A DNA stretch of 45,285 nt from a virus: the IMG/VR virus record IMGVR_UViG_3300025869_000031, positions 1 through 45,285 of that record, one strand, 5' to 3'. This document shows positions 16,881 to 45,200 of the stretch, piece after piece; positions within the stretch are counted from its first letter, which is position 1; each line of letters begins with the position of its first letter. The notes beneath the pieces were generated by a model, which saw only the letters and a program-made list of their open reading frames with translations, had not been told where the DNA came from and did no database searches. A program made the translations under genes and the position numbers.

Positions 16881-18044
16881 TTAAGAATCCTTTCTATATA
16901 TTACATAATGTTCCAAGTCGCACCAAAAATCAGAAGTGTCTATCACTTTCTGATTCTTGTCTCCCATTGGCTCGTCTAAAACCCAGTGAGCTTTAGTCGA
17001 ATACTTTTTCCCATTAGAAATTATTATTTTTGAAGATTTCATAAAAAGATTATCGCACGTTTCAACCTCTTTGTCAAGATCTTTTTTTATCTTTTCTTCA
17101 AATAAGGAAACTCTATAATCAATGAATCTCAATCTAACTTCTGTCAGTAATTTATTATCCCTGACGAATAATTCAAAAGATATCTTGTATTTTTTTAAAA
17201 TTTTTAAAAAATTTAATATTTCTGCGACCTCCGAGTCTTTTAGAGATTTTATTTCTAAAGATATTTTCTCTATACCTTTTCTTGAGGCTGAAATAAATCC
17301 TTCTTCAAAAACCCTGTCCGTGATAATTCCCGTTCTTCTACCCAGCGTGAACGCATGGATTTTGTCTAAATCAAAATGGAGATCAGCTCTTAAGTTCACT
17401 AAAGAGTTTGCTAAAAAAGAACTTTCGGGAAAAAAATCTGGAATTATTTCTATTGTTTTTATCGGATAGTTTTTTCCCATAAAAAATTGAGAAAAATTCA
17501 AATCTAGATCTAGATTTAACTCTTTTAATATTTTTCGAGCTATCGTTACTGGAGCTATTTCGTTAATAGTCTTCTTGTTTTCGTTAGGGTTTAGGGAAAA
17601 CGATTTTCTTTGAGGAGTTACTATGTTGATGAAATTAGACTTTACTAAATTCTCTGGGTTTTCGTGAGAGATCAATGAGATGCAGGGGGTTTTATTTAAG
17701 TCGCATAAGGACGACCTGAAATCAAAAGAATTTAAATGAAGTAAAGAATTTCTAATTACGTAAGACTCTTGATTGAAATCAAGCATCCCTCGTAAGTTGA
17801 AAACACCATCTATTTGAGGGGTTTTTGACCCACCCATTTGAATAATTTTTATGCCTTCTTTATTTAATTCATTAGAAATTAAATCGAGAACCTCTTGCCA
17901 GTAATCATAAGCTTTACTCTTTTCGGCTGTTTCTAGATTTAAAGATATGTATTTATTGTGAACAATGGGAAAAAAAGACTCATCTACGAGAGGTTCGTTT
18001 ATTTTTAGCCCAGAATGAGATGCGAAAGTTTCAAGTTTGTTCAT
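16881..18044 (-). CDS. Glycosyltransferase family 9-like C-terminal domain
   Basis: ATG 18044 (MNKLETFASHSGL) overlaps the upstream stop by 14 nt. The longer frame starts with TTG. Residues about 30-130 look like the nucleotide-sugar-binding half of a heptosyltransferase-type GT9 protein: YWQEVLDLI, then GIKIIQMGGSKTPQIDG, then LRGMLDFNQESYVIRNSLLHL, then KTPCISLISHENPEN. The N-terminal half of such an enzyme appears to be the end of the preceding 640-residue protein. The C-terminal 200 residues (ending VIDTSDFWCDLEHYVI) have no match I know. It acts presumably on virion or host glycans. Confidence 0.6.
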   Translation of the reverse strand: MNKLETFASHSGLKINEPLVDESFFPIVHNKYISLNLETAEKSKAYDYWQEVLDLISNELNKEGIKIIQMGGSKTPQIDGVFNLRGMLDFNQESYVIRNSLLHLNSFDFRSSLCDLNKTPCISLISHENPENLVKSNFINIVTPQRKSFSLNPNENKKTINEIAPVTIARKILKELNLDLDLNFSQFFMGKNYPIKTIEIIPDFFPESSFLANSLVNLRADLHFDLDKIHAFTLGRRTGIITDRVFEEGFISASRKGIEKISLEIKSLKDSEVAEILNFLKILKKYKISFELFVRDNKLLTEVRLRFIDYRVSLFEEKIKKDLDKEVETCDNLFMKSSKIIISNGKKYSTKAHWVLDEPMGDKNQKVIDTSDFWCDLEHYVIYRKDS

Positions 18045-21121: not shown

Positions 21122-23530
21122 TCAAAAAATCAAGCTGTTTTTATTTATATTGATGTTTTTTCCCTGTCCTTTTATTATAAATTCAGAGACTTGGTTTTCA
21201 ATATTTTTTTGTATTAATTTTTCAACTGGTCTTGCTCCAGAATTCAAAGATAAAACTTTAGAAACTAGCTCTTCTATGGCATCTTCGGCAATATCTAAAT
21301 TTATATTTTTTGATTTTAGCTTATTTGCTAATTTTTCAATTTGATTGTTGACTATTTTCCTTATTTCAACCCTTGTGAAGTTGTTAAATATCACAATATC
21401 ATCAATCCTGTTGACGAATTCTGGGCTGAATTGTTTTTTCGAAAGCTCGATTATTTTATCTTCATGCGATTCTGAAGTGGGAGAAAATCCTATAGAGGGA
21501 GTTTTATCTAGAATCTCAGCCCCTAAGTTGCCAGTCATGATTATGATTGAATTTTTAAAATCACTGACTCTCCCAAACCCATCCGTAACTCTACCTTCCT
21601 CCAATATTTGAAGTAGAACATTTATAACTTCAGGATGAGCCTTTTCTATTTCATCGAACAAGACCACACTATAAGGAGATTGTTTTATTCTGTCTGTCAG
21701 CTGACCTCCGTCTTCGTAGCCTACATATCCTGGCGCTGCACCTATTAACCTAGATACATTTATTTTTTCGGAAAATTCAGACATATCTAAGGCTATCAAA
21801 TTGGATTTGTCTCCAAAATATTCTTCAGCCAAAGCCTTTGCTAGGAGTGTTTTTCCTACTCCGCTTTTGCCCAAGAAAAGGAAAGACCCTATTGGTCTCA
21901 CGTGCTCTCTTAGGCCGCTTTCAGCTCTCATTAAGCAATTGTGGATTGAATCTACAGCTCCCTGTTGGTGTAAAACTTTTTTATTTAATTTTTTGTTTAA
22001 ATTTAAGACCACTTCTGCATTTTGCCTAGATAGCCTTTCGGAAGGAATACCCGTCTTTGAAGACATTATTTCATAAATATCATCACAGGTTACATAGAAA
22101 TTTTTCTGTTTATATTCTTTCATCCAATTAGAAAGAATATCTTTGTATTTTTCTATTAACTTTTCTTGCCGCTTCTTTAAGGAATGCGCTTTTTTGGGAT
22201 TATCGTCTTCCTTTTTCATTAACTCTTCTATTTGAAGTTCTATTCTTTTTGCTGAGTTGGGTTTGTGGAAATTTTTCATTTTAACCCTAGAGCCCGCTTG
22301 ATCTATAATGTCTATAGCTTTATCAGGGAAGTGCCTATCGTTTATATATCTATCAGAAAGTTCTATAGCTAAATTTACTGCGTTTTTCCTATATTTTACA
22401 TGGTGAAAATCTTCATATTTATTTAAAATCCCCTGTATTATTTTAGACGTCTCTTTTTTACTCGGCTCTTTTACTTTTATTTCTTGAAATCTTCTTTGGA
22501 GTGCGGAATCTTTTTCTATAGATTTTGAATATTCTTTACTTGTAGTTGCCCCTATGCATTTTATAAAGCCTTTTGATAATGCTGGTTTTAGTATGTTAGC
22601 CGCATCCATACTACCTTCCGCCGACCCAGCTCCTATTAAGGTATGTATCTCATCTATAAATAAGATGATTTTTTCATTATTAGAGGCTTCATCTATTAAG
22701 GATTTTAACCTTTCTTCGAATTGACCTCTATATTTTGTTCCAGCTATCATTCCTGCAAGATCTATCTCGTAAATTATTTTATCTAATAAGAAATTAGTAA
22801 CATCTCCGCTAACTATTTTTTGAGCAAGCCCCTCAATTAATGTTGTTTTCCCTGTTCCTGGAGGGCCAGTGAGTATCGGATTGTTCTTATTTCTTCTGCA
22901 CAAAATTTCAGATAACTCGTTTATTTCGAGATCTTTTGAAATAATGTTGTCAAATTTCCCAGAAATAGCTAATTCATTATAATTAATAGCATAAGAGTTG
23001 AAGAACTCTGAGTCAGCCGATCTTTTTTCGACATCTTTTCTTTTGGGGGATTTTTTTTCCTCCCATTCGCCACTTATGAAGAAGTTTTTTAACTTTTCTC
23101 TGCCTTTTTCTACATCTACATTGAAGTCATTAAGTAAATTTGGCAATGGGGATTTTTCATATACCAATAATATATAAAAAAGGTGCTCTATGCCTACATA
23201 ACCATGCTCTAGTTCGTCGGCAAAAGAAAAAGCTAGTTTGAATACTTTTTTGTAATGAGTATCGTAATCAATATCTTTTTGGTTGAAGTTTGAATCTAAA
23301 GAATGTATTGAGGCGGTTTTTTCAAAATCAAAAACCAAAAGTTTAAAATCTTCCAAAGATACATTAACATCTTGAAAAAAACTAAGTATAGTCGATTGCT
23401 TTGATTCTAAAATAGAAAAAAGCAGGTGTGATAAGTTAATATCATGAGATCCCAAACTTTCAGCTAGATTTTTCGAACTCGATATGGCTTTTTGAACCCT
23501 TGGGGTAAAGTTATATTTTTTCATTCTCAT
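21122..23530 (-). CDS. ClpC/ClpA-type AAA+ unfoldase with ClpP-docking loop
   Basis: The 802-residue Hsp100 protein has an N-terminal Clp repeat domain (about 5-150). Its first AAA+ module has Walker A GPPGTGKT (222-229), Walker B ILFIDEIHTL and Arg finger ALQRRF. A short middle domain (about 420-475) has ClpC rather than ClpB size. The second AAA+ module has Walker A GKSGVGKT (554-561) and Walker B VVLFDEIEKAHP. In the second module TPSIGFSPT (678-686) occupies the place of the IGL/VGF loop that docks ClpP, which ClpB lacks. No clpP lies in the window, so it would work with host ClpP or alone. It shares the genome with a tmRNA, a tagging RNA for this kind of protease. Confidence 0.9.
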   Translation of the reverse strand: MRMKKYNFTPRVQKAISSSKNLAESLGSHDINLSHLLFSILESKQSTILSFFQDVNVSLEDFKLLVFDFEKTASIHSLDSNFNQKDIDYDTHYKKVFKLAFSFADELEHGYVGIEHLFYILLVYEKSPLPNLLNDFNVDVEKGREKLKNFFISGEWEEKKSPKRKDVEKRSADSEFFNSYAINYNELAISGKFDNIISKDLEINELSEILCRRNKNNPILTGPPGTGKTTLIEGLAQKIVSGDVTNFLLDKIIYEIDLAGMIAGTKYRGQFEERLKSLIDEASNNEKIILFIDEIHTLIGAGSAEGSMDAANILKPALSKGFIKCIGATTSKEYSKSIEKDSALQRRFQEIKVKEPSKKETSKIIQGILNKYEDFHHVKYRKNAVNLAIELSDRYINDRHFPDKAIDIIDQAGSRVKMKNFHKPNSAKRIELQIEELMKKEDDNPKKAHSLKKRQEKLIEKYKDILSNWMKEYKQKNFYVTCDDIYEIMSSKTGIPSERLSRQNAEVVLNLNKKLNKKVLHQQGAVDSIHNCLMRAESGLREHVRPIGSFLFLGKSGVGKTLLAKALAEEYFGDKSNLIALDMSEFSEKINVSRLIGAAPGYVGYEDGGQLTDRIKQSPYSVVLFDEIEKAHPEVINVLLQILEEGRVTDGFGRVSDFKNSIIIMTGNLGAEILDKTPSIGFSPTSESHEDKIIELSKKQFSPEFVNRIDDIVIFNNFTRVEIRKIVNNQIEKLANKLKSKNINLDIAEDAIEELVSKVLSLNSGARPVEKLIQKNIENQVSEFIIKGQGKNININKNSLIF

Positions 23531-23546
23531 TTTTAAATTACACCTT

Positions 23547-26105
23547 TTATTTTAAATCCGATAATTTCATGTATATTTTTTCGTCAACGATAGATAGGTC
23601 GTCTAAAAATAAGACATCTTCGCCTTTGGCTCCAAAAATAATTACTATGCTATTTTTTTCAGGAAGTTTACTTTTCGACTTAAATCTACTAAGTGTTTTT
23701 TGTCTACCATCGACCATTATTGCATTAAACTTCCCGTATTCATCGTTTATAGTTAGCTTCATGTAATCATTTCCATTTTTACTTTTTCGACAAAAGGAAT
23801 CTTCCACAAAGCCTATGTACTTTGATTTGTCCCCTATTTCGGAAGAATGAAAATGTAATGAATTTTTTAGAGATTGAGAGCTTTGAGAAAAAACCTCCCT
23901 GAGGTCTTTGCTATAGCTAAAACCAAGCAAAAATCTTTCAAAATACCAATTCGCAAAATCTTCATACCTTCTGTTCTTTTCGTAAATTTCTTTATATGAA
24001 AAATAATTCTTTTTAAGCGTCTCGAATCTTTTCCTTGGCATGATGGCTCTTCCGTCATCGCCCGATTGTTGATTGGTTACAACGTCATGTATAGAATTTA
24101 ATATATCGTAATTATATTTCTCCCCTAACTTTACGAAATTTCTCTTTTCCCTATCTGTTAATAAATTAAAAACCTGAGCTTCCAGAACTAATCTAGGTCT
24201 CTTTATTTTGTAACTAGACAAGGCTCCAGCCTGTATCAAGCATGAAACAATGCCTATGTTTAACCCCGATTGTTTTGCCGCTAGAAATATGTCATATTTA
24301 TGAGGCTTTTCTGAATCAATAAACTCCTTCAGAGACTTTAATGATTTTTCGCTAATACCTTTTATGCTGTTTAATCCAAATCTTATATTATCGCCTTCTA
24401 TTGAAAAGTCCATAGAAGATAAAGTTAAATCTGGAGGTAATAGCTTTATATTAAAAAAGGGGAGGTCTTGGCATATTTTGTTTATTTCGTCCTGAGGGTT
24501 GGGCTCATACCTAGTCATCTCTAGTAGGCTCAGGAAGAACTCCTTTGGATGGTTGAATTTAAAATAAACAGTCCACGCAGCCAAAACAGAATAGCAGAGC
24601 GAGTGGCTTTTATTAAAGGAGTAATTAGCGCTATCTTCAGCGACTTTCCACAAAACCAAACCGACTTCTTCGTCTAAACCTTTGTCTTCTACCATTTTTA
24701 TTATTTTATTCTTCCATTTTGGCATTTGATCTATTTTTTTCTTGCCAACGATTCTTCTGATTTGCTCCGACTCATCCAAAGTGAAGCCTATCTTGACCGC
24801 CATTTTCATTAATTGCTCTTGATACAAGGGTATGCCTCCTGTATAATTCAAAACATCGTCAAAGAACTCATGAATACTTTGGAATTCGCCAGTTCGAGAG
24901 TATCTTTCGTAATGGCTTATAAAGTCCATAGCCCCTGGACGAGCTATCGCTATGACCGCACTGAGCTCTTCTATATTTTTAGGTTTTATTTTTTTGCAAA
25001 CCATATAATTTGCGTCAGCTTCTATCTGAAATAAACCATGCGGAGTTCTTAAATTAGACAAATTTTTATAAATCTCTTCTGAGTCTAGGTCAATATTTGC
25101 TGGGCTTATGCCGACCATTTTTGCCGTTTTATGGATTGCAGTTAAAGTTCTTAATCCTAGGATATCAAACTTAACCATTAGCTCTGCAACATCATTCATG
25201 TCGTAACAAGAGACTAGAGCCCCTTCTGAAGTTCTCTGAGTGGGACAAATTTCAGCTATAGGCTTGTGGGAAATAGCTATTCCTGAAGGATGGACTCCAG
25301 TATTTTTATTCAGCCCTTCAAGCTTTAACGAAATTTTATAAATCGATTCGTTTTTATCGCAAAATTCAGAAAACTTTTCGCTAGCACCTTTAGCTTCGGA
25401 CAATTTCATAACTATTCCAAAGTTCTTTGGAATGGAGTCGCTAATTAAATTAACTTCTTGTTCTGAGAGACTCCCAACTAATTTTCCACATTCTTTTATG
25501 CAAAGTTTACCGCTTAAAGTATTTAATGTGAGAATTTTTGATGTTCTGTTAGGGTGTTTTCTTTCAATGTAATTAATAACTGTTTGCCTGTACTCGTAAG
25601 CAATATCATTGTCTACATCCGCAAGCAAACTTCCGTCAAGATATGTTATTCCGTCTTCTATTATTTTTTTCGCCCTACTCTTTGAAACAAAACGCTCAAA
25701 AAATAAATCATATTTTATAGGATCTACATCTGTAACTCCAATTAAAAAAAGAACTAATGATCCCGCCGCGCTCCCTCTTCCTGGCCCAGTAGGGATTTTA
25801 TTTTCATGGCAAAAATTTATAACATCCCAATTTAATAAAATATAATCAATGAATCCTAGAGAGTTTAATATTTTAAGTTCTTCCGAAAGTCTAGAAATGT
25901 AACTGTTATAATTATCTTTAGAGTTTATGTTTTTGACTTCGATGCCTTTCAAGCACATCTTTTCTAGGAATTCAAAATTATCTACTTTTAAATCAATGCC
26001 ATTTTCTATATAATGCTTTTCATCTATTGTTATTTCTGGCAATCTCACTCCCGCAGGGACACATCCCTCGTAAGAATCAAATTCGTTATAAAAATCTTCG
26101 CTCAT
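23547..26105 (-). CDS. dnaE: DNA polymerase III alpha (DnaE), catalytic part of a split enzyme
   Basis: The 852-residue protein lacks the PHP domain and begins near the PHP-palm junction (LPEITIDEKHYIENGIDL). It has GPGRGSAAGSL (107-117), the catalytic ADVDND motif (Asp 163, 165, with 167; normally PDxDxD) and the third catalytic Asp in VKFDILGLRTLT (314). The fingers follow (PLYQEQLMKMA, FNKSHSLCYSVLAAW), then a helix-hairpin-helix region (FGLNSIKGISEKSL) and an OB domain (KYIGFVEDSFCRKSKNGNDY). It synthesises the phage DNA. The missing N-terminal part is encoded at 27686-28456, and the exonuclease gene overlaps its start (ATGA). Confidence 0.93.
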   Translation of the reverse strand: MSEDFYNEFDSYEGCVPAGVRLPEITIDEKHYIENGIDLKVDNFEFLEKMCLKGIEVKNINSKDNYNSYISRLSEELKILNSLGFIDYILLNWDVINFCHENKIPTGPGRGSAAGSLVLFLIGVTDVDPIKYDLFFERFVSKSRAKKIIEDGITYLDGSLLADVDNDIAYEYRQTVINYIERKHPNRTSKILTLNTLSGKLCIKECGKLVGSLSEQEVNLISDSIPKNFGIVMKLSEAKGASEKFSEFCDKNESIYKISLKLEGLNKNTGVHPSGIAISHKPIAEICPTQRTSEGALVSCYDMNDVAELMVKFDILGLRTLTAIHKTAKMVGISPANIDLDSEEIYKNLSNLRTPHGLFQIEADANYMVCKKIKPKNIEELSAVIAIARPGAMDFISHYERYSRTGEFQSIHEFFDDVLNYTGGIPLYQEQLMKMAVKIGFTLDESEQIRRIVGKKKIDQMPKWKNKIIKMVEDKGLDEEVGLVLWKVAEDSANYSFNKSHSLCYSVLAAWTVYFKFNHPKEFFLSLLEMTRYEPNPQDEINKICQDLPFFNIKLLPPDLTLSSMDFSIEGDNIRFGLNSIKGISEKSLKSLKEFIDSEKPHKYDIFLAAKQSGLNIGIVSCLIQAGALSSYKIKRPRLVLEAQVFNLLTDREKRNFVKLGEKYNYDILNSIHDVVTNQQSGDDGRAIMPRKRFETLKKNYFSYKEIYEKNRRYEDFANWYFERFLLGFSYSKDLREVFSQSSQSLKNSLHFHSSEIGDKSKYIGFVEDSFCRKSKNGNDYMKLTINDEYGKFNAIMVDGRQKTLSRFKSKSKLPEKNSIVIIFGAKGEDVLFLDDLSIVDEKIYMKLSDLK

Positions 26106-26743
26106 ACTTCAACCTCCCACAATAACTTCATTAAAACTTCATAAGTTTTTTCCACATCATATAAAGCATCATGTAATTTTGATTCGTCGAAATGTATTGA
26201 GTAATCTTGACACATTTGTTTTAAGTTTGTTTTTATACCTTTTTTTCGATTGTGTAAAAGTTTATATTGCCATTCAAGCCTGCCGTGCTTCTCGGATTTA
26301 GGTATGTTTAATTTTAAAGCTCTAGCCAAACAATTGGTGTCCAGAAGTCTATCTAAATAAGAAAAATCTGAACTTAAGCCGTTTAGTTTTCTATGGATAT
26401 TGTGAATATAAACATCAAAACCTAAGACATTGTGGCCGCATATTAAGTAGTTCGAGTCATAAAGAAAAGATTCGAACTTACTAAGCACTTCTGAAGAATT
26501 TTTTTTCTCTTTTTTGTATTTTGTTAAAGAGAAGCCTGTAATTCTGGCGGCTTCTTTTGAAACTTTCAAGTCGTCCCATTCGATTAAAAAATTATACCTC
26601 TCTAAAATTTTATTTTTATCGCAAATTATATAACCAATTTGCCAAGGTTTATTGTTAAACGATCCTAAGTTTAAATTGCAGGTCTCGTAGTCAAAAACTA
26701 AAAATTTTTGATCTTTTTTGAATCTTATTAGTTCGTCATTCAT
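26102..26743 (-). CDS. DnaQ-type 3'-5' proofreading exonuclease (DEDDh)
   Basis: The 213-residue protein has Exo I FDYETCN (Asp 18, Glu 20), Exo II GHNVLGFD (Asp 110) and Exo III LHDALYDVEKT (His 191, Asp 192, Asp 196), the four carboxylates and the His of a DEDDh exonuclease. It lies directly upstream of, and overlaps by ATGA, the catalytic DnaE gene, so it is the natural proofreading (epsilon-like) partner. It also overlaps the upstream GMP-reductase-like gene by ATGA. It lacks the C-terminal alpha-binding tail typical of E. coli epsilon. Confidence 0.9.
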   Translation of the reverse strand: MNDELIRFKKDQKFLVFDYETCNLNLGSFNNKPWQIGYIICDKNKILERYNFLIEWDDLKVSKEAARITGFSLTKYKKEKKNSSEVLSKFESFLYDSNYLICGHNVLGFDVYIHNIHRKLNGLSSDFSYLDRLLDTNCLARALKLNIPKSEKHGRLEWQYKLLHNRKKGIKTNLKQMCQDYSIHFDESKLHDALYDVEKTYEVLMKLLWEVEV

Positions 26744-27699
26744 ACCTCTGTGTAATTTACATTTTTTAATGAATTTAAATCATCTCCTCCAGCGTAACTA
26801 ATTGAGCTCTGGAGATCTTGGGTGATTTCAAGTAATTTGTCTCCAAAGCTCATTCCGTTAGTTGTGATTTTGTTTAACTTACCTTCTATGTTGTTGTTAT
26901 GGCCTTTGTTTTCCGCACTAGCAGAACCAAAATACGCTTTGTGCTTAATTCCATCTATTTCTATTATAGAAGCTGGACTATCTGTGCAGGATGCAAATAG
27001 ACTTCCAGACATTACAGCCGACGCTCCTGCAACAATTGCTTTCGCAATATCTCCATTGCATCTTATTCCCCCGTCCGCAATTATGGGGACGCAGTGACCA
27101 TTATCGAGAGTAATGTTTGAGCACTGCTTGACACATGTAAACATCGGAACAGTGAATCCTGTTTTATCCTTAGTGGTGCAAGGCGAACCTTGCCCAATTC
27201 CAACTTTGATAATATCAGCCCCCCATTCCGCTAAATCTCTAACAGCTCTAGGAGTTGCAACGTTCCCCGCTATGATTTTTGCTGATGGAATGTGCTTTTT
27301 CACGCATTCGATTGTAGATTTCATTCTATAACAATGCCCATGAGCAATATCAATTGTAATGTAATCAATTCTTTGCTTGTGTTTAGAAAAATAGATTATA
27401 CTCTTCTTGTCTTTTATTTTAACTCCCATGCTTACGGAAATTGTACTCCAATTTTCTTCATTCATTTGAGTTACTACATCTTTAAGATCATTTCCGAATC
27501 TATGCATTATATAAAAATAGCCATCTTCACTTAATGCTTTTGCCAAATCCATATCTATTACTGATTTCATGTTAGCGGCTATAATTGGCAGCATGAACTT
27601 TGTTCCGCATAAATCTACGGAAGGATCACAATCAGACCTGCTGAAAACTTCGCTATAGTTAGGAATGAGAGATATGTCTGAATATTTAAGACTTTTCAT
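26740..27699 (-). CDS. guaC: GMP reductase / IMP dehydrogenase-family enzyme
   Basis: The 319-residue TIM-barrel protein has no CBS domains, as in GMP reductase. The N terminus SLKYSDISLIPNYSEVFSR matches LTYDDVLLVP-type starts. The active loop IKVGIGQGSPCTTKDKTG (165-180) carries catalytic Cys 174 and the KTG typical of GuaC rather than IMPDH. IADGGIRCNGDIAKAIVAGA (phosphate site), MSGSLFA and YFGSAS follow in family order. It would convert GMP to IMP with NADPH, or act in the reverse direction as an IMPDH-like enzyme, shifting purine pools during replication. Unusually it lies between the two parts of the polymerase. Confidence 0.88.
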   Translation of the reverse strand: MKSLKYSDISLIPNYSEVFSRSDCDPSVDLCGTKFMLPIIAANMKSVIDMDLAKALSEDGYFYIMHRFGNDLKDVVTQMNEENWSTISVSMGVKIKDKKSIIYFSKHKQRIDYITIDIAHGHCYRMKSTIECVKKHIPSAKIIAGNVATPRAVRDLAEWGADIIKVGIGQGSPCTTKDKTGFTVPMFTCVKQCSNITLDNGHCVPIIADGGIRCNGDIAKAIVAGASAVMSGSLFASCTDSPASIIEIDGIKHKAYFGSASAENKGHNNNIEGKLNKITTNGMSFGDKLLEITQDLQSSISYAGGDDLNSLKNVNYTEV

Positions 27700-30020: not shown

Positions 30021-30770
30021 ATGGATTTACTGTCAGAAAATTTTCAAACAGAAGGGTTGGGGGGAGGATTTCCGTTTTTTACAAAACAAAAGTCAAATTT
30101 TATTAGGACTCAGCCTTTAACTAGCGGAAACTTTCCTGGGCTTCCAGTAACTGTTAATCATTATTGGAATTTAGCTAGTGTTGATTTTAATGCCGAAATA
30201 AAAACTGAAGATAGGCCTGCGGGGTATGAAAATTCTTATTTTAATACCTCTCAAGATTCAGATGTTGATGGTTATAATGATTTCTCGGTCTCTTATAAGG
30301 TTTATAATCCTCACGACCAAACAGACCTACGACCCATTCACAGGATAGCTATTGATGAAACAGGACAAGAAACTAGTGTTTCTTTAAACAATAGATTTAA
30401 AATACAAGGAGATGGGAAAGATAAGACATCTTGTTATGTAGCCAAAGAGGAAAATGGGTATGTAGGGTTTTATCAACCTTTAACGATTCAACCTAAAAAT
30501 ACTGGAGTGTTCGTTATAACATTGGATTTAGATGTTGCTAGGTATTTCGAAAATATCGTTGGGTTTTCATCTATTCAAAGTTTCGAAATAAATCATAAGA
30601 TCAATATAGGAAGTGGAGTAGCAGAGATTTCCGAAGGAGGCCAAAAACTTAGTAAAAATGACGATGTATATATGGATTTTCCAACTTCTGGATATTTAGT
30701 TCCCCGAGAAGGCTGGAGTTTTAAAATACAAAACTCCAAAATAACTAACAATTACTACCACTATGGGTAA
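30021..30770 (+). CDS. Hypothetical, probably virion-associated beta-rich protein
   Basis: The only long plus-strand gene: 249 residues, no signal peptide or membrane helix. The start is Gly/Phe-rich (TEGLGGGFPFFTKQKSNFI) and beta-like segments follow (DFSVSYKVYNPHD, VFVITLDLDVARYF, YLVPREGWSFKIQ). A DVDGYNDF stretch could bind calcium. The composition (Tyr, Asn, Gly, Ser) fits structural proteins. It ends in NNYYHYG and overlaps the convergent small gene by 26 nt. Function is not recognised. Confidence 0.6.
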   Translation: MDLLSENFQTEGLGGGFPFFTKQKSNFIRTQPLTSGNFPGLPVTVNHYWNLASVDFNAEIKTEDRPAGYENSYFNTSQDSDVDGYNDFSVSYKVYNPHDQTDLRPIHRIAIDETGQETSVSLNNRFKIQGDGKDKTSCYVAKEENGYVGFYQPLTIQPKNTGVFVITLDLDVARYFENIVGFSSIQSFEINHKINIGSGVAEISEGGQKLSKNDDVYMDFPTSGYLVPREGWSFKIQNSKITNNYYHYG

Positions 30771-30990
30771 TATATTGATCGATTCCACTGGAGTCCATCT
30801 CTAAAATCCATTTTTCAGAATATCTACAGTATTTTTCCACAGAAATAGTTTGAAAGTTAAGTCTTTTAGCTAACCTTGTTAGTTCATGGAATTGCAAAGC
30901 TTGAACGGAGCTATCCGCCATATAATAGTGATAGTTATCAATATCTGAATGATAAACACCAGCATTATATTTTATTCTATATTCATTCAT
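30745..30990 (-). CDS. Small hypothetical protein
   Basis: The 81-residue protein has the pattern YRIKYNAGVYHSDIDNYHYY, MADSSVQALQFHELTRLAKR and VEKYCRYSEKWI, typical of small conserved phage proteins with a beta-beta-alpha plan. It starts at ATG 30990, overlapping the upstream MazG-like gene by 8 nt. Function unknown. Confidence 0.55.
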   Translation of the reverse strand: MNEYRIKYNAGVYHSDIDNYHYYMADSSVQALQFHELTRLAKRLNFQTISVEKYCRYSEKWILEMDSSGIDQYITHSGSNC

Positions 30991-31177
30991 TAGTATTCTT
31001 ATTTAAATAAATTTTTAATAAATTTAAGTATTTTTCAACATCTACGATTTCATCTGTTATTTTTCCGCAATTACTTTTGCTGATTTTATTAACAGCATGA
31101 ATCAATTCTAACGAAAGTTCGTTTAATTCTTCGACACATTTTAAGAAAATTCTTTTATCTCGTGTTGATAATTTCAT
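30983..31177 (-). CDS. Mini MazG-like protein
   Basis: The 64-residue protein has the two-helix signature of MazG/dUTPase-like nucleotide pyrophosphohydrolases: CVEELNELSLELIHAVNK (14-31, the EExxE part) and KITDEIVDVEKYLNLLK (39-55, the ExxD part). These residues bind Mg in the family. It is shorter than typical MazG (about 100 residues) but in the range of phage mini-MazG proteins. It could hydrolyse non-canonical or alarmone nucleotides. The promoter 11 nt upstream begins 9 nt after the tmRNA end. Confidence 0.6.
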   Translation of the reverse strand: MKLSTRDKRIFLKCVEELNELSLELIHAVNKISKSNCGKITDEIVDVEKYLNLLKIYLNKNTNE

Positions 31178-31225: not shown

Positions 31226-31666
31226 TGGTGGAGGTGGCGGGATTTGAACCCGCGTCCTGAGTGCTTTCAAGCAAGCACATCTACAAGTTTAGTTTATTTT
31301 TTTTAGAGTTACGATATAAACATCTAACTAACCATTTCAATTATTCACTCAAATTTGAGGCCCCCGAATATTCAGTGGTACAGTTTACGAAACGGATAAA
31401 CTTTTATCTGTTTTTGCAGATGTCGTCCTCGTATTTTAAATATCTGCGTCAATAAAAACGAGGGGGCAGCCTTAAGCTACCATCTCAAGCTCTTCAGCTT
31501 GCTCGAATTGTACGAGATTATCGTACTCTTCACGAGCAGCTTCAAGAAGCTCTTTAATGCTATCATAACCTTCGCCATGTACAGCTTTGTGTCTTGATAT
31601 CGGAGCCTGACACATCTCCGACTTGCAATGCGAGAATCCAACATCAGTCGAATCCAGAACACCCCC
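31226..31666 (-). ncRNA. ssrA: Transfer-messenger RNA (tmRNA), one-piece, 441 nt
   Basis: The 5' end GGGGGTGTTCTGGATTCGAC matches the conserved tmRNA start and pairs with CACCTCC of the 3' acceptor strand. The 3' end has the T-arm GCGGGTTCAAATCCCGC and an encoded CCA. Pseudoknot 1 is visible: stem CGGAG/CTCCG, with loop GTGTC pairing to downstream GACAC. After the tag frame, interleaved pairs CTCGT/ACGAG and GCAGAT/ATCTGC form a second pseudoknot, and a CTAAACTTGTAGA segment precedes the 3' domain as in bacterial tmRNAs. It rescues stalled ribosomes and adds a degradation tag. Its own promoter lies at 31697-31724, so a 5' leader of about 20 nt would need RNase P removal. Confidence 0.95.
31472..31576 (-). 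other. tmRNA tag-peptide reading frame, 34 codons plus stop
   Basis: The resume codon is read as GGC at 31576-31574, 11 nt after the end of pseudoknot 1, as in E. coli. The tag starts GEGYDSIKELL and ends EELEMVA before TAA (31474-31472). Eleven acidic and two basic residues make it strongly negative and helix-prone. Known tags are mostly 8-35 residues and many end in LAA or LVA; this one ends in MVA. A resume at the in-frame GCT 9 nt earlier would give 37 residues. Confidence 0.8.
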
Positions 31667-31696
31667 CTAAAATTTCAAAAGAACAAAAACAAAAGT

Positions 31697-31724
31697 ATTA
31701 TATAGGATTATAACAAAAAATCAA
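31697..31724 (-). promoter_or_regulatory. Promoter of the tmRNA gene
   Basis: TTGATT (31724-31719), 16-nt spacer, TATAAT (31702-31697). The start point would be about 23 nt upstream of the mature 5' end. The -35 overlaps the end of the gene at 31708-31917. Confidence 0.65.
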
Positions 31725-36083: not shown

Positions 36084-36491
36084 CTAGATTACACCTAATT
36101 TCAAAAGTAAATCTTTATTTATATCATCCCCATCGTATATTTCTATATATTTTATTTCATTCTTAATGCAGAAGTCTTGTTTTTGCTTGTCTCTTCTTAA
36201 CTGATCGATATAGTTAGACTTATTTTTATTATGAAAAAAGGGGACATACTTCCTGTGCTGAGCCCCCTGGACTTCAATTGCTATTTTTTTTGTAGCATTA
36301 TAAAAATCTATAGATAACCTTGTGCCTACTACTGGGAACTCTTCGAAGACGACATTATTTTTCCAGTGCGAATGCAAGGTTTGTTTTGTTTTAAATTGAA
36401 CTTTACTTTTACTTTCCTTCTCCCAGTCTATCAGGTAATTCCTAAGCTTTGAGACTCTCTTTTCTCCTCCATGTAAGGTTTTGAACTTCAT
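36084..36491 (-). CDS. Small PD-(D/E)XK (Vsr/DUF559-like) endonuclease
   Basis: The 135-residue basic protein has TRLSIDFYNATKKIAIEVQG (57-77, trimmed), giving the D...ExQ-type catalytic set of Vsr-like and DUF559/DUF2726 nucleases. HRKYVPFFHNK, the helix YIDQLRRDKQKQDFC and the strand IKYIEIYDGD complete the fold. It would nick or cut DNA, perhaps at mismatches or at host DNA. TAATG junction with the upstream glycosyltransferase. Confidence 0.72.
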   Translation of the reverse strand: MKFKTLHGGEKRVSKLRNYLIDWEKESKSKVQFKTKQTLHSHWKNNVVFEEFPVVGTRLSIDFYNATKKIAIEVQGAQHRKYVPFFHNKNKSNYIDQLRRDKQKQDFCIKNEIKYIEIYDGDDINKDLLLKLGVI

Positions 36492-38284
36492 TAGTATTGC
36501 CTCCCATTACCATGTCCAGAATCATAATATGTCAAGGGCTCATTTAAGAAAGCACAGTCTGTAATAGAGAGGCTTCTGAGCCAATACTCTTTATCCTGAC
36601 CCTTCTTGAAAGAAATAGACTCGTTTAATAAACCTATCTTTTCGACAATACTCTTGGATAATACTACAGAAGATCCTATTATAAAATTATGATCTAATAT
36701 ATTTGATTTATTGAAAAAAACAGGAAAGGACACTTCGATGTTTGATATTTTTTTCATTCTCTTGGATATTCCTCCTTGGTATAAGTTATATTTTTTCGAC
36801 AAATCAAAGAGCCCTTTGCCCATAAAAGCTTCTGTGCAACTCATCTCGCTTCTAGTAGCATCCATTAATTTTATCTGTTTCTTTATTTTTGTGGGGTACC
36901 ATGCGTCGTCGTCATCACAAAAAGCTATGTAGCTTCCTTTCGCAATTGAAATGCCATAATTATATACATGAGACCTGCAGGTGAATCCGCAAATTTCTTT
37001 AGAATTTTTAGGCAAATCTATCCAAATCACTCCATTTAGCCTACTCTTGTAATCTTGATCGGTTGATCCATCATTAACCACAATGATTTCAATATTGGGA
37101 TAATCTTGAGACTTTATGCTTTCCACCGCTTTTTCCAAAAAAGTCCATCTATTGTAAGTACCAACAATAACCGACACCATTGGCAAGTCGCCTGTATTTT
37201 TTGTGCCTTTTATTTTTTCAAAAGATTCAATTCTTTCGTTTCGAAAAGGTAGTGAGCATTGATCAAAGTATTTTTCTTTTAAACTTTTTTTATCAGTTAA
37301 AGGGCCATGGTTACCAAGTCCAATAAAATTATGAGTTGATTCGTATTTGTTTTTGTAAATCACAAAAGCCTCAGAGTCTTTTTCTATCTGCTCTAATTTT
37401 ACATTTTTCAATTGAGAAAAAAGTTTTAAAGCTATTTTTTGAGAGTGAGATTTATAAGGCATTACTATCTTTTTGCCTATGTTTAATAATTTATCCACGA
37501 GGCCTTTGGCTATTAAGTAGTCATTAGGGCCAAGGTGAGGCATTAAAAATAAACTATCACTAGATAAATCATTACTTTCTGAATCAAAAGCCATCTTGAA
37601 AGGAGAGATCCTCTCTCCAACAAAGGATCCGAAACTAAATTTTTCGTGCTCAGGGAAAGGTACTGAATAAGAATAATTGCTGTTTTTCGGATTACTATGG
37701 TGATCTATGCAGGAATCTTCAAACAAAGATAGGACATGCTTGTTTAAAAAGATTTGATCATCATGGTATCTGAAATTATAATTTTTCTTACGAGTAAATA
37801 TATCTATAGATTCGGACATATTAAAATCAACTGGTAGTTTCAACCCCCACATCCCGCCCATCACTGCTGAGAAATGACCGCCCTTAAAATCAGCATCGTG
37901 CATTGTGTGCATTTTGCACCTAGAACCCAGCCACTCTTCTACGGCTTTCGCTTCCCTTGGGTTAACTAAAGAATCAGTATCTCTTGATATGAAAACATCT
38001 ACATCGGGATCGTCTGCTGTTAAAAACCTCCAGAACATTGGGGGGATTTTTGAGTCAACAACTAATATTTCACAATCTTTTTCGCATAAAGAAGATAAGT
38101 CTTTTAAGTCTTGACTGCAATAAAATCGACAAATCCAATCTGGGTAATATTTTTTGGCAACATCTACATTTTTTATAGCTCCAAGAAGATATTTTGAATC
38201 TTCGCCATAAACAGAAAAACTAATTATCTTTTTTTTAGTTTCTTTTTTTACCGACTTTACTATATATTTTACATAATCATTCAT
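36491..38284 (-). CDS. Two-domain glycosyltransferase with C-terminal GT2 domain
   Basis: The 597-residue protein has an N-terminal GT-A-like domain (about 20-200): KKIISFSVYGEDSKYLLGA, PPMFWRFLTADDPDVDVFIS and a DxD-like RDTDSL, then GGMWGLK. A spacer follows (200-365), then a GT2 domain (about 367-597). The GT2 domain has MVSVIVGTYNRWTFLEKAV, IIVVNDGSTD, YIAFCDDDDAWYP (the DxD/DDDD metal site), a C-terminal GQDKEYWLRS acceptor motif and a His/Gly-rich end. It transfers two sugars or elongates a glycan. Start and stop share bases with the neighbours (TAATG). Confidence 0.82.
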   Translation of the reverse strand: MNDYVKYIVKSVKKETKKKIISFSVYGEDSKYLLGAIKNVDVAKKYYPDWICRFYCSQDLKDLSSLCEKDCEILVVDSKIPPMFWRFLTADDPDVDVFISRDTDSLVNPREAKAVEEWLGSRCKMHTMHDADFKGGHFSAVMGGMWGLKLPVDFNMSESIDIFTRKKNYNFRYHDDQIFLNKHVLSLFEDSCIDHHSNPKNSNYSYSVPFPEHEKFSFGSFVGERISPFKMAFDSESNDLSSDSLFLMPHLGPNDYLIAKGLVDKLLNIGKKIVMPYKSHSQKIALKLFSQLKNVKLEQIEKDSEAFVIYKNKYESTHNFIGLGNHGPLTDKKSLKEKYFDQCSLPFRNERIESFEKIKGTKNTGDLPMVSVIVGTYNRWTFLEKAVESIKSQDYPNIEIIVVNDGSTDQDYKSRLNGVIWIDLPKNSKEICGFTCRSHVYNYGISIAKGSYIAFCDDDDAWYPTKIKKQIKLMDATRSEMSCTEAFMGKGLFDLSKKYNLYQGGISKRMKKISNIEVSFPVFFNKSNILDHNFIIGSSVVLSKSIVEKIGLLNESISFKKGQDKEYWLRSLSITDCAFLNEPLTYYDSGHGNGRQY

Positions 38285-39330
38285 TAGTCAGGAATAATTA
38301 TTTCATCACACTCTTCTCCTTTTAAGATCAACCAATGAGGATTATTATTATTAATAAATTCAAATTTAGTCTCTTGCCCTGAACCTTTTGACCCAGAATA
38401 TATATTTCTTTCTGTTAAAATCGGGGAGTAAATGTTTTTTTGATTCCCTAATAAACAAGCCCACCAACTGAATGAGGAATTAGCTCTAAACACAGATCTA
38501 GCGAAGTAAATCCTAAGGAAGTCTGGCAGCCAATCAAAAACCACATCAGGAATCACTTCTGAGCCTTCTGGGTAACGCCAAGAACCCCTTCTTGAGAACC
38601 AGTCGTTGTCACTTGGCTTACCCACTCCCCAGTTTCCAGTCCAGTCATCTGTAGTCCACTCTATTGATTCTGGATCATATCCATACTTCTTAAATGCATC
38701 TTCGTAAGATTTTTTTGAAATAACAGAATACCCATAATTAGTCTCATATTTTATTGAAGAAATGTCATCTCTTCTTAAATGAGCTATGTCATATTTACCC
38801 TGCCTTTCTTCTAATCTTTTGTATATGTCTAGAGATTTTATTTCATCGCTAAATTCAAACAATTCGTTCTTTAAGAAATTTTTAGATAGACCTTCAAATA
38901 TACATTTATGATAACAGCATATTGAATCATACCAAACATTTTTGCGTTTATTCCACACCTCTTTTTTGTCCGAGGGGTTTAAATAGGTTATGTTCTTCCC
39001 ATGCTTCTTTGAATATGAAGATATAGCCTCACTTCTGTGTTGGAAATTTTGAGTTTGCTTGCTTGTTTGATTCAAAAACAGCCTAAGGTCGCCATCGTTC
39101 GAAACTATATGAGGTTGATTTTTGAATAAGCTAGAGCCCTCCCAGTCAGACGGCAATACTAATTGTAAGTTATTCTTCTTTGCGTAGCTGGCTCCATAGG
39201 CATATTGATGCATACGATTTCCAAATCTACCCTCCCACTTAGATAGAATGATCTCGCTTTTATTTACTTTTCCAGCTTTTGTTTGTTTTTGTGGGGCTCT
39301 TTTATTTTTAACTATCTTCTTTGAACTCAT
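38284..39330 (-). CDS. GT11-like fucosyltransferase-type glycosyltransferase
   Basis: The 348-residue protein has the alpha-1,2-fucosyltransferase signature set: GRFGNRMHQYAYGASYAKKN (motif near the N terminus, GNxM.QYA), AHLRRDD in the middle (HxRRxD, GDP-sugar binding) and FRANSSFSWWACLLGN near the C terminus (the NSSFSWW motif). It begins with a basic tail (SSKKIVKNKRAPQKQTK). The family uses GDP-fucose. The acceptor is unknown. It stands between RecA and another glycosyltransferase in one operon. Confidence 0.78.
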   Translation of the reverse strand: MSSKKIVKNKRAPQKQTKAGKVNKSEIILSKWEGRFGNRMHQYAYGASYAKKNNLQLVLPSDWEGSSLFKNQPHIVSNDGDLRLFLNQTSKQTQNFQHRSEAISSYSKKHGKNITYLNPSDKKEVWNKRKNVWYDSICCYHKCIFEGLSKNFLKNELFEFSDEIKSLDIYKRLEERQGKYDIAHLRRDDISSIKYETNYGYSVISKKSYEDAFKKYGYDPESIEWTTDDWTGNWGVGKPSDNDWFSRRGSWRYPEGSEVIPDVVFDWLPDFLRIYFARSVFRANSSFSWWACLLGNQKNIYSPILTERNIYSGSKGSGQETKFEFINNNNPHWLILKGEECDEIIIPD

Positions 39331-40414: not shown

Positions 40415-40781
40415 CTTTTAAAAAGTCTCTTATTGTTTTAGGTTTCTTGTTTATAATTTTATCTTCTCCCACTTTATCTCCCAACTTTATCTCTTCCTTC
40501 TCTGGTATTATATAGTTAAAGTCTAAATATTTATTTTTTAGGAAGGTTTTTCCCCAGTCTCCCCTTAAGGCTAATAGGCTATCATACTTTTTAGGTAATT
40601 TTATCTTATTCCAAAAGTTTAAATCTGGAAATTTTTCAATAAGCTCCATTAAGAATTTAGTTTCTTTTGCCCAAAAAGCTCTTTTGTTAAGCTTTGGAAC
40701 AATAAGTAATCTTTCTATTATTTTTTTTCTTTCTGTAGGTTTCAATTCGCTTATTATCTCATTTTTTTTCAAGAAAGTCAA
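40407..40781 (-). CDS. Conserved-type phage protein (FW.KE...L..KY motif)
   Basis: No ATG exists near the start. I take the TTG at 40781 because it makes a TTGA overlap with the upstream stop, the same device as at 12930. The 124-residue protein has KLNKRAFWAKETKFLMELI, FPDLNFWNKIKLPKKYDSLL and TFLKNKYLDFNYIIPEKEE, a pattern found in small uncharacterised proteins of T4-like phages next to RecA or packaging genes. It is basic and has no signal or membrane segment. Confidence 0.6.
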   Translation of the reverse strand: MTFLKKNEIISELKPTERKKIIERLLIVPKLNKRAFWAKETKFLMELIEKFPDLNFWNKIKLPKKYDSLLALRGDWGKTFLKNKYLDFNYIIPEKEEIKLGDKVGEDKIINKKPKTIRDFLKDE

Positions 40782-42220
40782 GAACAAAGTCTTACGAATT
40801 TAGAGCTAGTGGGGTCGTAAGCTAAAATCTTTTCATACAGATGCAAGTTTTGACCATTGTTAGCTATTGATTTATGTTTTAAAATGTCTTGTTCTGAGAT
40901 GGACTTGTTTTGATTATGAAGCCAGTCAAAACCTCTGTCTTTAAGCTCTTGAGGGATATTCTTTATAGATTCTTCTTTTTTATTTTTTATAGCTTCATTG
41001 TAATCTGAGTGAGGGAAATTAAAAACCCCCTCTGGGAAAATTAATTTGGATCTTTCTAACAAGTCTGTGTCTTGATAAGCCATGTTGTATAAAGACTCAT
41101 TGTAGCCGCCTAGTTCATAGAAAAATTCTCTCCTAACACCTACTCTCCCATAGTTTCCGCTAAACCACTCTCTTCTGCACCATTGATGAATTAATTTTAT
41201 ATTTTGATCTTTAAATATATTAATTAATTTATCGCCACCTCTAATTCCTGTGAAATTATCACAGTCCAAATTAACTAAAACCTCGCCTTCTCCAAGAAGA
41301 TGGCAAGTATTCTTGCATATAGAAGCATGCCAATATGGGAAGTTAGTAATTTTAAAAAATTTTAAAAAACCTGAAGATAAGTAATTCTGGCAATTTTCAA
41401 TGACCCATTCCGAGCAACCATCATTAGAATCGAAATCGACTAATATGAATTCTATATCTTTAGAGTTCTCTAGGTTTGATTCTAAGTTTTCGAATAATGT
41501 TTTCTTTAATTGACTGAGCCTATTCTTCACCCCTGTACAAAAACTTATTTTTTTAAGCCCGTTGTTTAGTTTGTTTTTGTATAGAAAATAATTTTTTCTT
41601 TCTAAGTGTTTTTTTGCTGGAGAATGATATAAGTGAAGTGCCGTAAAATTAAATACATCAGGTTCGTGACCTCGCAATTGATTATTTACGAAATCGAGAT
41701 CTTCCCATCCCCATCCCTCGAAAGACTCATCAAACCCCCCTTTTTCTTCAAGAAGGCGTTTGGATATTAATATCGCATGCTTTCCCCAAAAAGAGCAGCG
41801 ATTACTATCGGCTAAATCTTCAGGCTCCAATTCCAATTTTAAAAATTTTTCTGTTAAATTCGAATTCAATAAAAATGTTGTGTCGAAAGGTTTTGCCAAC
41901 TCTCCTTTATAGGATTTTAAAGCCTCTAAGATTTCGTCGAAATTTAAAAAAACATCAGCATCTAAAAATAATATATAATCACAGTCAATATCTTCGCATG
42001 CTATATTGTATAATCTCGATTTATTAAAATCTTTTTTTGCTGGAACTTGAATTGTTCTGATGTTTTCTTGTTGAAATTCAGAAACAACATTGTCTTCAGT
42101 TTCTTCGCAAATTATAACATCAAGAGATTGCCCCGAGAGACAGTCCTTTAAGAACGATAAGTTTCTTAATCTATACTCGCAGGAATTTTTAAATGCTATT
42201 ACGACACAAAGATGCTTCAC
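40778..42220 (-). CDS. Tandem GT2 glycosyltransferase (chondroitin-synthase-like plan)
   Basis: The 480-residue protein has two GT-A/GT2 domains. The first (1-215) has HLCVVIAFKNSCEYRLRNL, YILFLDADVFLNFDE (DxD) and the acceptor motif GFDESFEGWGWEDLDF. The second (about 215-420) has ISFCTGVKNRLSQLKKTLF, EFILVDFDSNDG, EVLVNLDCDNF (DxD) and GGYNESLYNMAYQDTDL. Two sugar-adding sites in one chain suggest synthesis of a disaccharide-repeat glycan, or two steps on one acceptor. The start is GTG at 42220, 6 nt after a TTGAAT-N16-TATGAT promoter. Confidence 0.82.
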   Translation of the reverse strand: MKHLCVVIAFKNSCEYRLRNLSFLKDCLSGQSLDVIICEETEDNVVSEFQQENIRTIQVPAKKDFNKSRLYNIACEDIDCDYILFLDADVFLNFDEILEALKSYKGELAKPFDTTFLLNSNLTEKFLKLELEPEDLADSNRCSFWGKHAILISKRLLEEKGGFDESFEGWGWEDLDFVNNQLRGHEPDVFNFTALHLYHSPAKKHLERKNYFLYKNKLNNGLKKISFCTGVKNRLSQLKKTLFENLESNLENSKDIEFILVDFDSNDGCSEWVIENCQNYLSSGFLKFFKITNFPYWHASICKNTCHLLGEGEVLVNLDCDNFTGIRGGDKLINIFKDQNIKLIHQWCRREWFSGNYGRVGVRREFFYELGGYNESLYNMAYQDTDLLERSKLIFPEGVFNFPHSDYNEAIKNKKEESIKNIPQELKDRGFDWLHNQNKSISEQDILKHKSIANNGQNLHLYEKILAYDPTSSKFVRLCS

Positions 42221-42256: not shown

Positions 42257-45200
42257 TTATTCTGAAATCGTGGGTGTCGGGATAGGTATATCTAGTAATT
42301 CTAAATTAACAGGCTTCGCCGAGCTTTCGAAAGAGGCCTGAGATTCATCGGAGCTTGGGTATATTGTAGGAGTAGGAGGGTTGCAGCACTCATTTATGTC
42401 TGTAACTGGAATAACTTGATCTGGACTAAGCTCTATAAGCACTGAATTATTATATGCTTTTTTATTCTTGAACTGAAAATTGTCTTTTTTGAATTGAACT
42501 CCAAAATTGTTGACTTTCTTGCTTCCCTCGTTTAGATAGCATTGTCCGTCATAATCTATTATAGCAGGTAAGTCGCTAGCATCCTGAGAGGAAGGAACTT
42601 TTACGTGTATAGTCTCACCCCCCAGGCATCTTTCTTCCTCTTCCCCTAGGGCGTGAAATAAATTATTATCTCTTGCGAACAGACTGGAGCTAGAGGCATT
42701 GCTTTGGTTTTGAGAGGATGGACTTAGAGCTACAACTGCTCCTTGGGGGCACAATTGATTGTTCCACAAACTGGGTACGGTAATTTCCCTGCTCTTTAGC
42801 CCCATAAATTTTCCTCCCGCTTGTTTTTTCATTACTCCTGAGTAAATGCAAGGAGCATCACCCATGCCTAGGAAATAAAGTTCATCTCTTGGATGAGGGA
42901 CATCAAGAGTCCCTTTGAAGTTTTTATCCACCCTAACAACATTAGTTGGGTGTTTTGCTGGTCGAAATATTGCGTTGGGAGGTGGGTTGACGTCTTTTAT
43001 TATTGTTTGGAGAAAAGGATGAGGCCTTACTTTTTGACGCATGTGAGCTGGAGCTCCATTTGGAAAATTTAAAAGGGCGGCGACTTTTAGGTTTTCAAAA
43101 GGCCCGATTTCGACAGAAGGATTAGGGCCGCAAATATAAGTAATTGTCGTCTTCCAGCATCCGACTTGTCCTCCGACTAAAGTTCCTCCTCTGGGCGCCT
43201 TATCCAGCCTTATTATAACTCCATTTTCTGTTTGGAGTCGATATATAACTTCTATTCCACATGTAGATTCTAAAAGTGGGCATCTTGGAGATGGATCTTT
43301 AGACCTCCAGCCTCTTGTTGTTACCCATTCTCCCGCAACTTTAAATGCAGGATTGCCCCCTTTAGGGCTAAAGTTTAACTCTTTAGTCTGTGGGTTAGGT
43401 ATTTTTACCCAACATGAATCAGGGGTACCAGGCGCCCCCCTTCCGTTTTCATTAGGTCCATATATATCATCCTTGCAGTAATGATCAGGCATCTCTTCGG
43501 AGCAATATTTACTAAAGCAATCTCTAGCTTGAATTTTCACCTTTACCCATTTGTTGAGCCTAGCGCTAAAGCGCTTGCCTCCGTCCCACACTGAAGTAGA
43601 TAGAGATGTTATGTTCATTCCATTGCGGGCGGCAACTTCACAAGCAGCTATGTATGTACGTACTCGCCTTCCATTAATGTATTTGGGAGGGTTTGGCCCA
43701 ATAACGGTAGGGTTATCTCTTGGATCCCCTCTAAATCCGCAATCTATTGGCATAGGGCACATATTTAAATTACCCGCTGTTCTCAAGTTGCTTCTTAGCC
43801 CTTTGATTCTTGGAACATCCTCAAAATTAACACCAATTCCTGCTCTAAATAATTGCACACAATCTGTGTTCGCTACCCCATTAACAATCACTGGATCGGG
43901 ATTCTTTGAGCCGAAAGTTCCGCATCCAGATTTGCTGCCGAGGTAAGGGTGCTTTACGCATCTCCCTCGATAGAGGCAAGATTTGACAGTAAACTGCCTT
44001 CCCGTTTCCTGAGGTCCGCAACCCAAAACTTCGTCCTCTACTGGATTAAATAATTGAGTAAAAACCCTTCCTTCGCAATAGCCGTTATCTGGTATTATTG
44101 GTATGCAATTTTTTCCACACTGAGCTATTACGGGGTTTCTTCCATCTGTAGCTTGAGCTTGTCTCCATCCTCCCCCGCCCATCGCCCACCACCAATACCA
44201 TGTTTTATTATGAACTAAAATATTGTTTGCAAGGAAATTATTTTTTGAAGAAAGCTCTAAAGTGAAAATAGACCTCTCTCTCTTATCTAACCTTTCAATA
44301 GAAATGATTGCAAACTCCTCCCATTCTCCATCACCCTCTTTAAATACGCAAAAATCATTGACTTCCAGTTTGGAGAAAGAATGCAAATCCCCTTGATCTC
44401 TATATTTAGATTTCGATTTAGATGGGCTTATTGAGCTCCAACCTTTATTCAGTACATAAAACGGATGATCCTCTGTTGATTTTACCTTAACTCCTCCTTG
44501 AAATGTTATTTCAAAAACACTTTTGCTTTTTGATTTTTTAACCGATTTAACCAAAGTAGTTTCGGTTTTAGAGAAGTCTTCTTTTAATACAGAATCTTTA
44601 CTGAAGCATTTTATGCTATCTCCAGATTTAATTTTATCTATCGTCTTTTGAGAAGAATCCGCAAGAGTTATTAGAGTATCTTTCGTGAGGCAAAGCCTTG
44701 GGATCTTAGGGGGCTTTGGGGTGAAAGGTGTGTCAACTGGTTCGGTGAAAGGAGTTTCAGTTTCAGGGGTTTCAGTTTCTGGAGTTTCAGTTTCTGGAGT
44801 CGGACTTGGGGTGAATGGGGACGAAGTAAAAAGAGTGAAAGGAGTATCGGTTACTGGGGTTGAAGTTGGAGCAATTGTTGGAGTCGGAGTGATCGTTTCT
44901 GGAGTCGGATAGGTCGGGGTCCAGGGAGTATTAGTGAAGGTAACGACTGTATGTGTTGGCTCGTGAGTAGGAGTTACAAAAGTAGGGGTGAAAACAGTGT
45001 TGGGCGTATTAGTTATTGTCTCAGGAGTGGGAGTGAAAATAACCTCAGTCAGAGTGATGGTTGGGGTTAATGTTTCTGGTGTCGGTGTTGCGGTAGGTGT
45101 TGGAGTAGGTGTCGGTGTTGGAGTAGGTGTAGCGGTTGGAGTAGGTGTCGGTGTTGGAGTAGGTGTAGCGGTTGGAGTAGGTGTCGCTGTAGGAGTCGCT

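Follow-up and report, generated by a model that had tools for sequence, protein, structure and literature searches.

The window, by which we mean the whole stretch of 45,285 nucleotides analysed (IMG/VR virus record IMGVR_UViG_3300025869_000031), carries a complete one-piece tmRNA of known type that encodes a 34-residue, strongly acidic tag. Comparison with related phages shows selection on the tag peptide, and the segment made of pseudoknot 1 (PK1) and the tag has been exchanged as a unit between RNA bodies within this lineage.

A preliminary description, made from the letters of the window, had proposed a phage-borne tmRNA with both ends, PK1, a further pseudoknot and a T-arm with encoded CCA, and had suggested a search with a tmRNA covariance model. 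Each of these elements was recovered, on the minus strand. ARAGORN and Rfam agree on the limits of the only tmRNA in the 45-kb window, and the covariance model RF00023 matched it over its full length (1-374) with 109.2 bits (E 6.5e-42), the gathering cut-off being 47 bits.

31226-31666, minus strand: tmRNA gene (ssrA), one-piece, 441 nt, CCA encoded, G3-U70 wobble in the acceptor stem (RF00023, ARAGORN, sequence)
31588-31621, minus strand: PK1, TCGGAG/CTCCGA and TGTGTC/GACACA (compensatory changes among 22 phage tmRNAs)
31416-31463, minus strand: pseudoknot 2 (PK2), CCTCGT/ACGAGG interleaved with GCAGAT/ATCTGC (compatible changes in relatives)
31465-31481, minus strand: helix 5, a hairpin (GGTAGC-TTAAG-GCTGCC) whose loop contains the stop codon (sequence reading)

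The acceptor stem (GGGGGUG/CACCUCC), the T-arm (GCGGG/CCCGC) and the CCA can be read directly, and the G3-U70 pair, the T-arm and the CCA are those of an alanine acceptor. The 6-bp stem b of PK1 co-varies in relatives, where it becomes TGCATC/GATGCA or TGCACT/AGTGCA, and the stop codon lies in the loop of helix 5, as in E. coli tmRNA (PMC1168896). The fold was more stable than those of shuffled sequences (z-score −4.69). Given this full anatomy, the RF00023 match and the conservation across independent contigs, the earlier judgement that the RNA looks functional was borne out.

The reading frame of the tag was placed 11 nt past PK1, where it encodes 34 residues, eleven of them acidic, with a net charge of −9, in keeping with the earlier reading of a long acidic tag ending in MVA.

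31472-31576, minus strand: tag reading frame, resume codon GGC at 31576-31574, 34 codons GEGYDSIKELLEAAREEYDNLVQFEQAEELEMVA, stop TAA at 31474-31472 (11-nt spacing, U-5A-4, pN/pS 0.27, homologous tags in eight other contigs)
31577-31587, minus strand: spacer of 11 nt, AAGCUGUACAU, whose U-5 and A-4 set the frame (comparison of relatives; for U85/A86, PMC2481249)

The frame of E. coli tmRNA is determined by U85 and A86, which precede the resume codon by five and four bases, and natural tmRNAs almost always keep A86 (PMC2481249). The same UA was found at −5/−4 in 22 of 22 phage tmRNAs; in the window tmRNA as in all these relatives, the resume codon comes after PK1 and is positioned by A-4. Codon conservation was of the coding type: for seven 34-codon acidic tags, pN/pS was 0.27 in the tag frame versus 1.30 and 1.61 in the two others, and for five 31-residue basic tags it was 0.21 versus 1.24 and 2.02. 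As these values lie well below those of the other frames for both sorts of tag, the peptide itself, its first half included, is under selection. ARAGORN reported only AREEYDNLVQFEQAEELEMVA, the last 21 residues, starting at residue 14 of the 34-residue frame. That this shorter peptide is the real tag is very improbable, because the 11-nt spacing and the U-5A-4 present in all relatives designate GGC as the resume codon and because synonymous differences and conserved residues occur within the first 13 codons. Furthermore, a 40-residue tag of relatives retains GEGY-SIEELLEAAREEY, and 16 of its first 18 residues are identical to those of the window tag.

These relatives were collected by a scan with the phage DnaB-like helicase, which yielded 80 related contigs; 30 records were checked for a tmRNA, and nine of them contained one above the cut-off. 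Further relatives came from pattern scans, and a scan of bacterial genomes added two phage contigs binned into MAGs. Three sorts of tag were observed. Acidic tags, with a net charge of −9 to −11 and ending in EMVA or PMAA, are carried by nine contigs including the window: six other IMG/VR contigs have the same EELEMVA-ending tag as the window, and two have the 40-residue form GEGYNSIEELLEAAREEYAVSQLIEDATALYEAEELPMAA, which ends in LPMAA and shares both ends with the 34-residue tag.

24946-25395 of G036: 40-residue acidic tag locus, L120
1777-2211: 40-residue acidic tag locus, L184

Close relatives also have long basic tags (31-32 residues, net charge +10 or +11, ending in KLALAA) or tags of 20-21 residues (net charge +2 to +7, ending in LALAA or AALAA), LALAA being the end of nearly all of them. 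A more distant relative, L090 (G026, 1501-1894), has a tmRNA whose tag, GKNKVVTFRKSAKVARKASLAAA, is basic too and is preceded by CAAAC rather than UACAU.

The published range of tag lengths is 8-35 residues (PMC8012679), so that a tag of 34 residues lies at its edge, as the preliminary description had also placed it, and the 40-residue form lies beyond it; this lineage thus extends tag lengths past those published. A generic scan of viral tmRNAs, considered as a background for tag length, was dropped, many of the contig names resembling isolate-genome prophages.

The variety of tags within a single lineage could mean that the phage requires its tmRNA for the release of ribosomes at a late stage of infection, and that the fate of the tagged protein is irrelevant or that its degradation is no faster than with the host tag. 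In E. coli, the tag function was not critical for phage growth in a plaque assay (PMC2481249), in line with this view. We nevertheless regard it as unlikely: a free tag would be expected to drift, whereas nine contigs have kept homologous acidic tags and purifying selection clearly acts on the tag peptides in their own frame.

The distribution of similarity along the RNA differed between its parts. Between the window and L167, which has a basic tag, the 5' and 3' tRNA-like arms are 96% and 91% identical, versus 61% and 44% for PK1 and the tag. Conversely, L116, which has an acidic tag, shares 93% and 94% identity with the window in PK1 and the tag, while its arms are nearer to those of L087 (basic tag; 89% and 85%). 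Counts of informative sites gave Fisher p values from 0.03 to 2e-17, mostly 6e-4 or below, for six triplets that are not all independent. These comparisons show that the PK1 and tag segment was exchanged as a unit; in sister phages, an RNA body that is almost unchanged holds basic or LALAA tags. The genes following the tmRNA lead to a similar picture.

30983-31177, minus strand: 64-aa gene just downstream of the tmRNA (homologue right after the tmRNA in G008 and G006, 65% and 60% identity)
30745-30990, minus strand: 81-aa gene, second downstream neighbour of the tmRNA (same order in G008, 55% identity)

Since both genes are shared with G008 and the first with G006, whose tag GNKSRIKAYSPQSESLALAA differs from that of the window, the locus is the same and holds a different tag. 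A host tmRNA was considered as the source of the RNA body, but no donor was found, the best bacterial RNAs being no more than about 62% identical at their ends, versus 71-99% among the phages. A copy of a phage protein segment was also considered as the origin of the tag, with no convincing match.

Elsewhere in the window, all on the minus strand, the replication block includes a gene resembling IMP dehydrogenase/GMP reductase (26740-27699; PF00478, E 3e-61, phrog_9582), and glycosyltransferase-like genes were found at 18031-19953, 36491-39330 and 40778-42220. A 765-aa ORF at 42257-44554, with Pfam matches to intein-splicing (PF14890) and AXH domains at its start, is probably an intein-containing gene.

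Two putative expression signals precede the tmRNA.

31697-31724, minus strand: sigma-70-like promoter TTGATT-16-TATAAT, upstream of the tmRNA (sequence; similar elements in relatives)
31673-31684, minus strand: boxA-like element GTTCTTTTGAAA (GTTCTTTGAAA-like), immediately ahead of the mature 5' end (similar in all 22 relatives shown; named only for its resemblance to boxA antitermination sites)

Several relatives have TTGACN...TAATAT elements upstream of their tmRNA. Together with a contig from a related phage that had been binned with a Halobacteriovorax MAG, the sigma-70-like promoters weakly suggest a proteobacterium-like host or one among the Bdellovibrionota. Flavobacteria, raised as a host by a shared 3' motif, were set aside, since their tmRNAs for the most part have neither the encoded CCA nor overall similarity. 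The window also encodes a 164-aa protein (782-1276, minus strand) with a sigma-70 region 2 (PF04542, E 4e-8), a candidate phage sigma factor.

The tag was predicted by AlphaFold to form a single helix spanning residues 2-33 (pLDDT 91.5). Its hydrophobic moment was not outstanding when compared to shuffled sequences (fractions 0.09-0.12). Thus, of the amphipathic helix proposed earlier, the helix was supported and the amphipathic character was not. The C-terminus is small and hydrophobic in both acidic forms, M-V-A in the window and M-A-A in the 40-residue tag; in the window these residues close a frame under selection, with a pN/pS of 0.27. ClpXP chiefly recognizes the terminal Ala-Ala, and the penultimate Ala is important for E. 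coli ClpXP (PMC7652416). This Ala-Ala of an ssrA-type degron ends the 40-residue tags of L120 and L184 as well as the basic and short tags, and is Val-Ala in the window, where recognition by ClpX could therefore be weaker.

Conceivably, the acidic helix weakens recognition by host ClpXP so that rescued phage proteins survive or are diverted elsewhere, the tag acting as a soluble acidic tail or as a docking helix for a phage factor. Its strong charge, its helix and its penultimate Val agree with such a role, as does its difference from the GENNYALAA-type tags and from the ANNDFAPAMAA tags of the marine bacteria examined; the earlier statement that the tag is unlike host-type tags was supported. 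A protective or diverting role is, however, quite unlikely in our opinion, given that the small hydrophobic C-terminal residues are retained, that the 40-residue relative ends in LPMAA and that sister basic tags end in LALAA. As this kind of C-terminus has been kept, the tag is most likely still a C-terminal degron; an ordinary C-degron function would be the simplest reading of the M-V-A and M-A-A ends, and the LALAA ends of relatives are consistent with it.

A candidate partner of the tag is encoded in the same window.

21122-23530, minus strand: ClpC-like Hsp100 unfoldase, 802 aa, with an IGF ClpP-docking motif at residue 680 (phrog_4871, Pfam and PDB matches)

This protein has a Clp_N domain, two AAA+ modules and a ClpP-docking loop, and its best PDB matches are ClpC/MecB (E 1e-194). 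The IGF aligns with the VGF of B. subtilis ClpC, and an [ILVF]GF loop was present in all 20 phage ClpC-like sequences read. A ClpC-like homologue was detected in 25 of the 30 records; neither ClpP nor SmpB was found in the 30 phage records, and neither ClpS nor SspB in 26, many of the records being fragments. Of 16 relatives holding both genes, 13 have the tmRNA on the strand of ClpC and downstream of it, at 116 bp to 19 kb. The distance is 116 and 225 bp in two relatives and about 31 bp in L184; the window tmRNA is instead found upstream of ClpC, at 7.7 kb.

It is tempting to propose that the tag is read chiefly by the phage ClpC-like unfoldase together with host ClpP, in the manner of Mesoplasma florum Lon. 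The frequency of the gene, its intact ClpP loop, the lack of a phage ClpP in the records and the ClpC genes adjoining the tmRNA in G033, G039 and L184 would fit this proposal. Nonetheless, the same kind of ClpC accompanies acidic, basic and LALAA tags, it is also present in records in which no tmRNA was found, and no charge complementarity was seen between its N-domain and the tag, the charge of the N-domain being independent of that of the tag. The window ClpC is moreover 58-60% identical to those of G006, G003 and G008, which have another tag, versus 53% to the ClpC of G009, whose tag is the same as in the window, so that tag and ClpC do not travel as a pair. Tag and protease hence do not co-vary as they would in a Mesoplasma-like pair, since both the N-domain charge and the similarity of ClpC ignore the type of tag. 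We hold this narrower form of the explanation favoured below to be possible but doubtful. Equally tentative is the idea that exchangeable PK1 and tag cassettes (acidic, basic or LALAA) redirect rescued proteins to phage ClpC on host ClpP, in which case a host disposal route would have been taken over and its label swapped between phages.

The explanation that we favour, and consider somewhat probable, is that a working phage tmRNA, with the SmpB of the host, adds a phage-specific helical tag for degradation by Clp proteases. The computed results comprise the tmRNA and its frame, purifying selection acting on the peptide, the exchange of modules and a co-carried unfoldase with neither ClpP nor SmpB; we infer activity in cells, degradation and the identity of the protease that reads the tag. 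The tmRNA would be transcribed from the TTGATT-16-TATAAT promoter, with the boxA-like element before its 5' end, charged with alanine by the host and provided with host SmpB. It may then enter ribosomes stalled on broken mRNA during infection; translation would resume at GGC 31576, appending Ala and the 34-residue acidic helix ending in EMVA. This tag could act as a C-degron read by host ClpXP, by the phage ClpC-like unfoldase docked on host ClpP, or by both. The long charged helix would be the phage-specific, selectable part, spreading as a PK1 and tag module that replaces basic or short LALAA tags. The penultimate Val, the N-domain charge of ClpC, which does not follow that of the tag, the unpaired tag and ClpC and the 7.7 kb separating the window tmRNA from the downstream ClpC speak against this explanation. 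The earlier suggestion that so different a tag may direct proteins to another adaptor or protease, or may spare them, is favoured by the ClpC-like unfoldase with its ClpP-docking motif; the lack of SspB and ClpS in the 26 records and the N-domain charge argue against a special adaptor.

Such a lineage provides natural near-isogenic pairs, with almost the same RNA body, tags of opposite charge and a co-carried ClpC-like unfoldase without ClpP. Comparison of their tags makes it testable whether a phage tmRNA serves rescue alone or steers proteins to a protease, and the pairs provide evidence that tags move as modules. Because the label is unusually long and acidic and is replaced by different labels in related viruses, it can be used to ask what purpose a label serves in infection, which bears on why phages carry a tmRNA and what labels do in infected cells.

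When compared to bacterial one-piece tmRNA (ssrA, RF00023), the window tmRNA has the same tRNA-like domain, PK1, U-5A-4 spacer, stop codon in helix 5, further pseudoknots and encoded CCA, and differs by its 441 nt, its 34-residue acidic tag, its Gly resume codon and its MVA end. Like the tmRNAs of mycobacteriophages Bxz1 and Wildcat, Bacillus phage G and the marine Melnitz-like phages, it is encoded by a phage and presumably uses host SmpB (PMC4131195; PMC9004378), but it is one-piece whereas that of Melnitz is two-piece. It also differs from other phage-borne tmRNAs in that 50,697 phage records yielded no tag resembling either the acidic or the basic one and in that tag modules are exchanged within its lineage. 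The unfoldase shares with ClpC/MecB Hsp100 proteins the Clp_N domain, two AAA modules, a short middle domain and the [ILVF]GF ClpP loop; in contrast to these, it is encoded by a phage and has about 40% identity to the unfoldases of other phage records, with no ClpP found in the phage records. Finally, the ssrA tag of Mesoplasma florum is, like that of the window, unusually long and is read by a dedicated AAA+ protease, Lon (PMC8138137), while the reader proposed here, in a candidate pairing, is a ClpC-like unfoldase.
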